A DNA stretch of 64,000 bases from Dysgonamonadaceae bacterium (GTDB lineage: Bacteria > Bacteroidota > Bacteroidia > Bacteroidales > Azobacteroidaceae). The stretch lies in the NCBI GenBank assembly GCA_031272075.1, contig JAISUK010000047.1, forward strand, positions 1 through 64,000, written 5' to 3'. The notes beneath the pieces were generated by a model. That model saw nothing but the letters and a program-made list of their open reading frames with translations. It did no database searches and was not told the DNA's origin. Below, in pieces: positions 54,684-64,000 of the stretch (position 1 is the first letter of the stretch; every line of letters starts with the position of its first letter). The translations under genes were made by a program, and so were the position numbers.

Positions 54684-55997
54684 TCATCCGGCCAAACCGG
54701 CAACTAAATTTCTGCGTTTTTCCACCCGATCGTAATGCCGTACCATGAATGAGGAACCGAGGAAAAGCAGGATTACCTCCGTGATATTTTGCGAAGCCAA
54801 AGCCTCTGCTTTTAATTCCAGGACAAACAGGTATAAAAATAGCGTCCCGATACACACAAAGTCCGCCCAACTTTGATGCGTCTTGTTGCGTTTGGAAATC
54901 AGTAGCGGCTCATAGAAATAGAGCGTTTGATAAAAGATCAGATACAGCAAGTAAAACACACCTCCATAGAGCACCGTCCGCATATAGCCCGCGTCGGTAT
55001 CGCCGTAGTATCCATCCGATTTCAGGTATCTTCCGGTACCTCTGAACATGACATCTTCCGGTATTTCATAATAGTGGTCATAAAGCATAATGTCTGTTGA
55101 ATGCGTCGAAAGTCGTCCGGTTTCTTCGTATTGATAAAACATTTCAAAGGCGAAAGGAAACACATGATTAACGAGTGCGGTTTGTCGCTGCGACGGCATA
55201 AACAAAAATACCACGAACAAAAACAAGAGAAACAGGATTGTCGTTTGTAGCAGGCTGATCAGGGTCTTGATTGGTTTTCGGAAAATGAACAAGCACATCA
55301 GTGCGCCCATGCCCAAGCCGACAAATGCCGTACGTCCGGTGAGGAGTGATCCGAACAACAGCAAGAAGAGGCAAATATATATTTTATAACCCGTAATGAG
55401 TTTTTGTCCGTCGATCAACAATATCCTGAAAAGCAAGACAAAAGCGATTCCGTACCCGGCGGGAAGTTCAAAAAACGGCTGACCGGCAAGCACATACCCC
55501 CTGAAATAAATATCAAACGGACCATTGAGCAAGAAATCCTGGATATATTCTTCTTTTATCGAAATCAACCAACTGCCGACAGCGGGTATCGTGAAACCCA
55601 GAAACTGAATCAATCCTTGCAATACGAATGCGTAAACCACAATTTTCATGGCTTCTTCAAAGGAGGAGGATTCTTTGCCTTCGATCAACACCGGCAGGCA
55701 GAAAACCAAACAACTCAGCATAAAAAGTTGCAATACAAACACTTTAACGAGCGTAATCTCGTAGGTGTTTCGGGTAATGGCAATGAAGGCGCAGATGAGA
55801 ATAGTGCATATCAGTCCGATAAAGATGATGAAATTGTACTTCTTGAAGAAAAAAGTGAAAGGAATCGTATTTTTGAAATAGACATAATAACATGCAGCCA
55901 GGATAACGGATAAGCTGGATGAATAATAGATATAGGGAAGTTTGAAATTGAAAATAATCAAAAACAAAAGTATCACCCTGAAAAAAGTCCGTAACAT
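54684..55997 (-). CDS. O-antigen polymerase-like protein (Wzy)
   Basis: The 437-aa protein is hydrophobic, with about 11 predicted helices and one large periplasmic loop (about 265-330, with YQYEETGRLSTHSTDIMLYDHYY). It has no enzyme motif, typical for Wzy, which joins repeat units en bloc in the periplasm. Position between the glycosyltransferases supports this; similarity to a named Wzy is not visible by eye. It is 3 nt upstream of the GT4 gene. Confidence 0.78.
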   Translation of the reverse strand: MLRTFFRVILLFLIIFNFKLPYIYYSSSLSVILAACYYVYFKNTIPFTFFFKKYNFIIFIGLICTILICAFIAITRNTYEITLVKVFVLQLFMLSCLVFCLPVLIEGKESSSFEEAMKIVVYAFVLQGLIQFLGFTIPAVGSWLISIKEEYIQDFLLNGPFDIYFRGYVLAGQPFFELPAGYGIAFVLLFRILLIDGQKLITGYKIYICLFLLLFGSLLTGRTAFVGLGMGALMCLFIFRKPIKTLISLLQTTILFLLFLFVVFLFMPSQRQTALVNHVFPFAFEMFYQYEETGRLSTHSTDIMLYDHYYEIPEDVMFRGTGRYLKSDGYYGDTDAGYMRTVLYGGVFYLLYLIFYQTLYFYEPLLISKRNKTHQSWADFVCIGTLFLYLFVLELKAEALASQNITEVILLFLGSSFMVRHYDRVEKRRNLVAGLAG

Positions 55998-61793: not shown

Positions 61794-62231
61794 TTATGGT
61801 TGTTTTTCTGGCAGTTTGTTATTCAAAATATCCTTTCGATACGCAACAAAATCGTCGTATTTTCTGATATAATCCTTTTCATCGTATTCGGCTGAGGCCA
61901 GCACCAAGCATACCGCTCCTGAGGAAAAATTGCTCAGCTCCCGCCAGATGCCGGGCACGACATACAAGCCGTAATACGGGCGATTGAGGGAGCAAGTTTT
62001 TTGATCCGTGCCGTCATCCAACGTGACATCAAAACTGCCGCTTACCGCAACGATCAACTGCTGCAATGCTTTATGCGCATGCCCTCCCCTTGACTCTCCA
62101 CCCGGAATATCGTAGAGATAGTACACCCTCCGCACGTCGAAAGGGAGATCCACGCCATTGTTTAACGCCGTGATATTACCTGATCGATTGTGAATTTTAG
62201 GCAAGGTGATGATATTGCAGTTAGAAATCAT
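61794..62231 (-). CDS. FdtA/QdtA-type sugar 3,4-ketoisomerase
   Basis: The 145-aa cupin has ITLPKIHNRSGNITALNN, RRVYYLYDIPGGESRGGHAHKALQQLIVAVSGSFDV and YYGLYVVPGIWRELSNFSSGAVCLVLAS. The HAH pair in RGGHAHK corresponds to the two active-site His of FdtA. It isomerises dTDP-4-keto-6-deoxyglucose to the 3-keto sugar for the DegT aminotransferase. It overlaps the second cupin gene by 11 nt. Confidence 0.9.
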   Translation of the reverse strand: MISNCNIITLPKIHNRSGNITALNNGVDLPFDVRRVYYLYDIPGGESRGGHAHKALQQLIVAVSGSFDVTLDDGTDQKTCSLNRPYYGLYVVPGIWRELSNFSSGAVCLVLASAEYDEKDYIRKYDDFVAYRKDILNNKLPEKQP

Positions 62232-62631
62232 GTCGTTTTTCCGATAATTTCAGGTATTCATCCAAGTCGCGTATATAGTCGCTTTCCTGGAAAAGCGTAG
62301 ATGCCAATACCAGGCACACCGCATTGGTAGAAAAGTTTTCCATTCTTCTCCAGCACATACGCGGGATATAGAGGCCTTTATAAGATCGGTTCAACGAAAA
62401 TTTTGCTTCATTGAACCGGTCATTTACCACCACATCAAAACTGCCGGATAATGCGATGATAATTTCCTCCTGGGTTTTAAATGCATGTCCCCCGCGGATT
62501 TCTCCGCCAGGGACATCATAGATCCAATACGTACGCTTAATGATAAAGGGCAGGTATTTTCCGTTCTCGATGAAAGAGAGATTTCCGCGTTCATCGAGAA
62601 TTTTCGGTATATCTATTATGGATACACGCAC
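62221..62631 (-). CDS. Second FdtA-like cupin protein, altered active site
   Basis: The track ORF extends to 62892, but its first 80 residues lie inside the beta-barrel gene and show no family resemblance. GTG at 62629-62631 (VRVSIIDIPKILDERGNL) gives 136 aa, the family length, and follows the previous stop by 16 nt; no ATG suits. Motifs parallel the tandem neighbour: TYWIYDVPGGEIRGGHAFKTQEEIIIALSGSFDV and YKGLYIPRMCWRRMENFSTNAVCLVLAS. The second active-site His is Phe (HAF instead of HAH), so isomerase activity may be lost or changed. It could be a helper or a binding subunit. Confidence 0.78.
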   Translation of the reverse strand: MRVSIIDIPKILDERGNLSFIENGKYLPFIIKRTYWIYDVPGGEIRGGHAFKTQEEIIIALSGSFDVVVNDRFNEAKFSLNRSYKGLYIPRMCWRRMENFSTNAVCLVLASTLFQESDYIRDLDEYLKLSEKRHDF

Positions 62632-62647
62632 ATGTGGAATCGCTAAA

Positions 62648-63445
62648 TTAAAATTTGTATTGCAGTCCCAACATCGTGTTTGCATTCGTGTCAAATCCAC
62701 GGTCGCCGATATAGCCGTCAAACTCTTCGGGGAGGAAAATGCCGTTTCCTTCAAAGAAGAGCGACCAGGGGCTACCCTTGCTGAAGTCGTACCCGAGGCG
62801 ACCTCCGAAGCGGAAGCCTGCCACATTGGTCGTAGGATTTGTTTCACTTTTGACATTGTGCAGAAATCCCACGCCCAGGAAACCCATGACATTGAATGAA
62901 TGGTCTTCTCGATCCGATCCGTTGAACAGCCGGATCATATCCACTGTAATGTCAAGAAATACGGACGTAGAATTGAAATCTTGCCAAAATCCTTGGCCGT
63001 CGTCGGTAAATTTAAATTTTCCACTGTTGGCATTGATCACTTCAGCATCGGAACCTTCCAAATAGACCCAATTACGCGGGTAATATTCCGGGTTCGGAAA
63101 ACTGCCGCTAGCATGTTCCACAAAACTGCCTCGTTGTGGGCCTAAGTAATTAAATCCACGGTAGCTTCCGCTATGAAACTGTAACCGAGCACCATAGGTC
63201 GATCCGAACCATTTACCGATAGAAATCTCAGCGCCATAAGTCATTCTGTCAAAAACCGATTGTGCACCATCTTGATTCGCCATCAGCAAATTTGGTCCGG
63301 CGCCAACCGAAAAATACCAATTTTTCTCGGACGCACTCTTTGACTCTTTCGCATTATCCGTTTCAAACTTATTCTGCGCATACGTCGTTTGTAAACACAT
63401 TACAAAACAAAAAGCAATTCCCAATAATAACTTTATTTGTTTCAT
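62648..63445 (-). CDS. Outer-membrane beta-barrel protein at the head of the polysaccharide locus
   Basis: The start at 63443-63445 (MKQIKLLLGIAFCFVMCLQ) gives a signal peptide cut after TYAQ and 265 aa. The mature part alternates strands rich in aromatic residues: WYFSVGAGPNLLMAN, YGAEISIGKWFGSTYGARLQFHSG, FNVMGFLGVGFLHNV, RFGGRLGYDF and the terminal TMLGLQYKF with C-terminal Phe, all typical of an OmpA-like eight-strand barrel. No peptidoglycan-binding domain is seen. A -7 box lies 70 nt upstream. It is the first gene after the BY-kinase gene and is probably exported with the locus. Confidence 0.82.
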   Translation of the reverse strand: MKQIKLLLGIAFCFVMCLQTTYAQNKFETDNAKESKSASEKNWYFSVGAGPNLLMANQDGAQSVFDRMTYGAEISIGKWFGSTYGARLQFHSGSYRGFNYLGPQRGSFVEHASGSFPNPEYYPRNWVYLEGSDAEVINANSGKFKFTDDGQGFWQDFNSTSVFLDITVDMIRLFNGSDREDHSFNVMGFLGVGFLHNVKSETNPTTNVAGFRFGGRLGYDFSKGSPWSLFFEGNGIFLPEEFDGYIGDRGFDTNANTMLGLQYKF

Positions 63446-63514
63446 ACTAAAATTTATAATTTTATTGTTCATATTTCCTTACAAAATTCATTAAATCAAT
63501 CTGATAAAACCGTG

Positions 63515-63522: not shown

Positions 63523-63615
63523 GCACTTTATTTAAAATCGTTATTTACATATTGTGATAAAAATATTGTATAACCCTTCCAAAAAGCAATTTAGTTGATT
63601 AATACTCAAGTTTGT

Positions 63616-64000
63616 TTATGTTTCCGTATCTTCTTCTTTCGAACTGTATCCATGTCCATAGCCGTAACCGTAGCCATAACCGTAACCGTAGCCATAACCG
63701 TAGCCGTAGCCATAACCGTAACCGTAGCCATATTTGCCTCGTTTGGTCTGTCCGGTACAATTATAGATCAACCGTATCCGTTTCAGACGTTGTTCGCGAC
63801 GAATACTTTCGATAAAATCAGAAACGCTCTTCGGCGTAAAGTTCTCTCTGACGACAAACAGCGAAGTGTCGGCAATACGATCCAGCAAGAAAGTATCGGA
63901 AACGCTTCCCACGGGCGAGGTGTCCAAAACGATGTAATCATATTCTTTCTTCAGTTTTTCGAACAGTTCATCCAAACGCGACTCCATCAGCAATTCATTG
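63616..64000 (-). CDS. C-terminal part of a Wzc-like tyrosine autokinase, truncated by the window edge
   Basis: The frame stays open from the stop at 63616 to the window end (codons up to 63999), so the gene continues outside; the track's ATG is internal. The visible 128 codons are the end of a BY-kinase: LFEKLKKEYDYIVLDTSPVGSVSDTFLL (Walker B-type DTSP) and FVVRENFTPKSVSDFI. A tyrosine-rich tail of thirteen YG units follows, then HGYSSKEEDTET. Tyrosine clusters in this position are autophosphorylated and control polymerisation and export with Wza and Wzb. The regular YG alternation is unusual. Confidence 0.9.
   Translation of the reverse strand, partial: NELLMESRLDELFEKLKKEYDYIVLDTSPVGSVSDTFLLDRIADTSLFVVRENFTPKSVSDFIESIRREQRLKRIRLIYNCTGQTKRGKYGYGYGYGYGYGYGYGYGYGYGYGYGHGYSSKEEDTET
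63646..63732. repeat. Hexanucleotide tandem repeat coding for (YG)13
   Basis: On the plus strand triplets ata/gta alternate with gcc/acc, giving TAT/TAC GGC/GGT codons on the minus strand. Copies vary at the third codon positions. The six-base period keeps the frame if copies are gained or lost. Confidence 0.9.

Follow-up and report, generated by a model that had tools for sequence, protein, structure and literature searches.

The tyrosine-glycine run at the end of the 64,000-nucleotide stretch of DNA analysed here (the window) is very likely a C-terminal tail on which a Wzc-type polysaccharide co-polymerase from Bacteroidota autophosphorylates, with ratchet-like YxY spacing and a loosely constrained length. 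The window ends inside an 812-aa kinase gene, of which it holds the final 127 codons (minus-strand frame 63616-63999), and translation of this frame gave a C-terminus reading ...GQTKRGK(YG)13HGYSSKEEDTET. Fourteen Tyr fall within the last 38 residues of the kinase, forming a C-terminal tyrosine cluster. The original prediction, thirteen YG repeats in the tail of a Wzc-type BY-kinase, was confirmed on both points: the run has exactly 13 copies, and domain architecture and genomic context identify the kinase. An ORF that crosses the repeat on the plus strand (63595-63999, ...AVTVAITVTV...) was dismissed as an antisense shadow of the YG run.

Coordinates of the kinase gene and its tail (window positions unless a contig is named).
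Feature	Position	Strand	Basis or remark
BY-kinase gene (PCP-2a, wzc-like), 812 aa	C52:63616-66054 (= L002:1617-4055)	minus	runs past window end
BY-kinase gene 3' end	63616..64000	minus	ORF translation, Pfam, NCBIfam
Walker B motif YIVLDTSP	63913..63936	minus	Asp invariant in 139/139 relatives
(YG)13 tyrosine-glycine run	63655..63732	minus	translation and repeat analysis
Tail end HGYSSKEEDTET: one further Tyr and acidic terminus, like several relatives	63619..63654	minus	tail comparison

Domain searches of the 812-aa protein established its architecture. Pfam matches to Wzz (PF02706), GNVR (PF13807) and AAA_31 (PF13614) were all above cut-off on a single chain, with the N-terminal Wzz and GNVR regions joined to a P-loop kinase domain as in PCP-2a proteins. 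The NCBIfam model TIGR01007 (polysaccharide biosynthesis tyrosine autokinase) scored 117.2 bits against a cut-off of 108.05, and E. coli Wzc structures matched the kinase at E = 1e-32 in an alignment that reaches up to the tail. Upstream, a Wza-like Poly_export/SLBB gene (Pfam) precedes the kinase gene. Downstream and in the same direction are genes for a Wzx-type flippase, glycosyltransferases, a DegT aminotransferase, FdtA-like proteins and a hexapeptide acyltransferase. A 437-aa protein (54684-55997) had no Pfam match and may be Wzy-like, judged solely from its hydrophobic sequence. Taken together, the three domains, the TIGR01007 and Wzc matches and the Wza-like and Wzx-type neighbours indicate that the window kinase most likely serves a Wzx/Wzy-type locus as its PCP-2a co-polymerase/kinase. 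E. coli Wzc (PDB 7NHR, 3LA6) is similar in that this PCP-2a BY-kinase carries Wzz and GNVR regions, a Walker-type kinase and a Tyr tail with YxY spacing on one chain, and has Wza as its partner in a Wzx/Wzy locus.

Two adjoining FdtA (WxcM-like) genes (61794-62231 and 62221-62640), both strong Pfam matches, were located near the DegT aminotransferase and hexapeptide acyltransferase genes, a grouping that probably represents a dTDP-3-amino-sugar pathway. Directly downstream of the kinase gene, 62648-63472 encodes a protein of 274 aa without a Pfam match, whose start is signal-like and whose overall look suggests a barrel.

BY-kinase cycling is thought to need a phosphatase. Neither of the two phosphatase families searched, LMW-PTP (PF01451) and CpsB_CapC (PF19567), was found in the window's genome, which is 93% complete; this counts against an autophosphorylated tail. 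The S. pneumoniae system has a CpsB-type phosphatase, and in P. gingivalis the Php1 phosphatase gene is adjacent to ptk1. There were two PHP-domain matches: one is a frame of 1302 aa, which has the length of a DnaE, and the other a PHP protein of 407 aa.

Motif conservation was counted over 139 aligned relatives (Bacteroidota kinases). The window kinase carries Walker A as GEGKT, with the Lys kept in 139/139 relatives, and the oligomerisation motif EX2RX2R as EMFRLLR, with the Glu kept in 139/139, the first Arg in 138/139 and the second Arg in 131/139. Walker A', which lies in the part of the kinase domain beyond the window, reads VGLDIR: the second Asp and the Arg are present, and the first Asp of DxDxR is replaced by Gly, a departure from the strict form (a hydrophobic stretch and DxDxR) and a difference from E. 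coli Wzc. Across the 139 kinases this position was Gly in 106, Glu in 21 and Asp in 12, and the second Asp was invariant. The altered first Asp is a change to a catalytic motif that extends across the clade. Because of this Gly, the motifs alone do not assure catalysis; the window kinase is presumably active, judging from homology and its maintained tail. Its placement among BY-kinases rests on TIGR01007 together with the other features.

The strict YG alternation had been predicted to be unusual for such tails; it proved to be the prevailing type in the phylum. Two samples of tails were compared. The first (n=46) comprised family and order relatives and is slightly biased, since the query contained the YG tail. 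The second (n=69) was phylum-wide, was searched with the kinase domain only and consists of better-scoring matches, with the most distant kinases under-sampled. Uninterrupted runs of (YG)3 or longer were seen in 31/46 family/order tails and 50/69 phylum-wide tails, and runs of (YG)10 or longer in 4/46 and 2/69, respectively. The lowest-scoring kinases taken phylum-wide (L181-L184) had YY-rich tails in place of YG. In uninterrupted copies the window's (YG)13 marks the upper end of the range and is matched by one relative (L020), and YG units per tail spanned 0 to 17 among relatives with otherwise similar kinases, the maximum being the total in L007. Named genera with YG tails include Flavobacterium, Parabacteroides, Pontibacter and Sphingobacterium; the scan of named genomes used a YGYGY pattern and was left out of the prevalence counts. 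From its named matches the window's genome was placed in Bacteroidota. The claim of unusualness is also contradicted by pneumococcal CpsD, whose (YGX)4 repeat has long been known (Morona 2003, as cited in PMC4574921). The window tail is therefore a long example of an ordinary phylum-wide feature, and the YG run encodes a conserved tail type, not a chance string. YG-tailed kinases were also seen in MAG records titled Roseburia (L036) and Azovibrio (L085), probably wrongly binned Bacteroidota contigs.

Published work on E. coli Wzc suggests how such a tail may function. The extent of tail phosphorylation, and no individual Tyr, regulates capsule assembly; Tyr i-2 is held in a pocket during phosphorylation of Tyr i; and the octamer is already disassembled by only about four phosphorylations (PMC11986026). 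In Bacteroidota, P. gingivalis Ptk1 autophosphorylates six Tyr that lie within a 16-aa stretch (PMC8863745). By analogy with Wzc, the tail of one subunit would enter the active site of the neighbouring subunit in an octamer, the Tyr would be phosphorylated one after another, each with its i-2 Tyr in the holding pocket, and rising phosphorylation would loosen the octamer and so regulate Wzy polymerisation. In the window tail, where almost all Tyr have another Tyr at i-2, the YG run would then string YxY motifs together so that they overlap, with Gly as a small flexible spacer, which would make all registers equivalent. In the phylum-wide sample, 304 of 559 tail Tyr had a Tyr at i-2, compared with 197 ± 9 in shuffled tails, as a YxY ratchet expects. 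The positions aligned with the Wzc tyrosine-pocket residues P536, E675 and S679 lacked conservation among the 139 kinases and gave no support for the ratchet there. We infer a ratchet for the window kinase from the work on Wzc.

A literature search for such runs matched amyloid-forming peptides and no BY-kinase paper. The synthetic peptide GYGYGYG forms amyloid-like fibrils (PMC10510724), and the YG run could accordingly be a low-complexity sticker that clusters kinases through beta-type or condensate-like contacts, not mainly a phosphate acceptor. This is an analogy with a free peptide, however, and the kinase domain to which the window tail is joined has known relatives that phosphorylate such tails; we regard self-association as highly improbable.

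The DNA of the run had been described as a hexanucleotide microsatellite. Hexamers are present, but a clean 6-bp repeat is not: Tandem Repeats Finder gave 94% matches at period 18 (score 140, 4.3 copies) versus 79% at period 6 (score 81). The better-fitting 18-bp coding-strand unit, TACGGTTACGGTTATGGC, consists of three degenerate TAYGGN hexamers and occurs in about 4.3 copies. Codon identity was 0.80 between positions three YG units apart and 0.79 between those six apart, and ranged from 0.28 to 0.38 at lags 1, 2, 4 and 5. When synonymous codons were shuffled among Tyr positions and among Gly positions, the synonymous codon pattern was found to exceed chance (best lag three YG units, permutation p = 0.003). 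Since synonymous codons recur every three YG units, part of the window's array arose through in-frame duplication. Growth of the array would thus have proceeded partly by duplication of an 18-bp block, which a loose constraint on tail length may have allowed.

Relatives showed traces of the same process. Codon periodicity at p < 0.05 was detected in 10/61 runs of six or more YG, where about 3 are expected by chance, and most arrays among the 61 runs had mixed synonymous codons. In-frame block duplication occurs, yet most arrays look old. Copy number was compared among 31 close homologues of one well-sampled genus, with one genome per species. In this small set of non-independent pairs, YG number agreed in 3/3 pairs above 90% body identity and differed in 7/9 pairs at 85-90% and 73/87 pairs at 70-80%. 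Equal numbers in the three closest pairs give no sign of rapid switching among the pairs compared, and YG number drifts over species time. The prediction of in-frame copy changes therefore stood in part, in that 6-bp and 18-bp steps keep the frame and related species vary in YG number; frequent switching did not.

These results bear on whether the array acts as a contingency repeat, as the original prediction implied: 18-bp or 6-bp units would be gained or lost through slippage or recombination, phosphorylation sites would differ in number within a population, and glycan length would be tuned in this way. The in-frame nature of every copy change, the past block duplication seen in the window array and a minority of relatives, and the differences between related species are all consistent with such a role. 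The unchanged YG number in the closest pairs argues against it, as do the mixed synonymous codons of most arrays, which are unlike a fast-mutating microsatellite. Extra sites, moreover, need not matter if about four phosphorylations disassemble the octamer as in Wzc (PMC11986026). We consider a contingency role quite improbable.

Alternatively, a few Tyr may suffice, with replication errors adding and removing further YG units to no functional consequence. The 0 to 17 range of YG number fits neutral growth, as does the finding that phosphorylation extent counts in Wzc rather than any individual Tyr (PMC11986026), and neutral growth is compatible with an autophosphorylated tail. Long runs such as those of L020 and L073 nevertheless keep YG strictly despite mixed synonymous codons, which indicates that selection at the protein level preserves the YG pattern. 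Neutral growth is a real possibility that falls somewhat short of probable. The exact copy number could possibly have a tuning role and might conceivably set glycan length, an idea with weak support. A reading in which YG number is an evolved length dial seems improbable; here a uniform two-residue ratchet track would set the number of phosphorylation steps before octamer collapse, and so polymer length, and 18-bp or 6-bp gains or losses would shift the dial in frame.

The autophosphorylation tail favoured here has counterparts in known systems. Five phosphorylated tail Tyr are irregularly spaced in E. coli K30 Wzc, whereas 13 of the 14 tail Tyr of the window kinase are in strict YG. S. pneumoniae CpsD resembles it in having a tail of short tandem Tyr-Gly units, the (YGX)4 Tyr cluster being autophosphorylated, but there the period is three with four copies, and the kinase is a separate protein from the membrane part. 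Ptk1 of P. gingivalis and other BY-kinases of the phylum share the Walker-type kinase with a Tyr cluster; the window tail is longer than that of Ptk1. The Tyr cluster was YG-alternating in most Bacteroidota BY-kinase relatives examined. These kinases form a natural series in which YG number runs from 0 to 17 and every second residue is mostly Tyr. Such variants could serve to test the YxY ratchet proposed for Wzc and a possible effect of tail length on polymer length.
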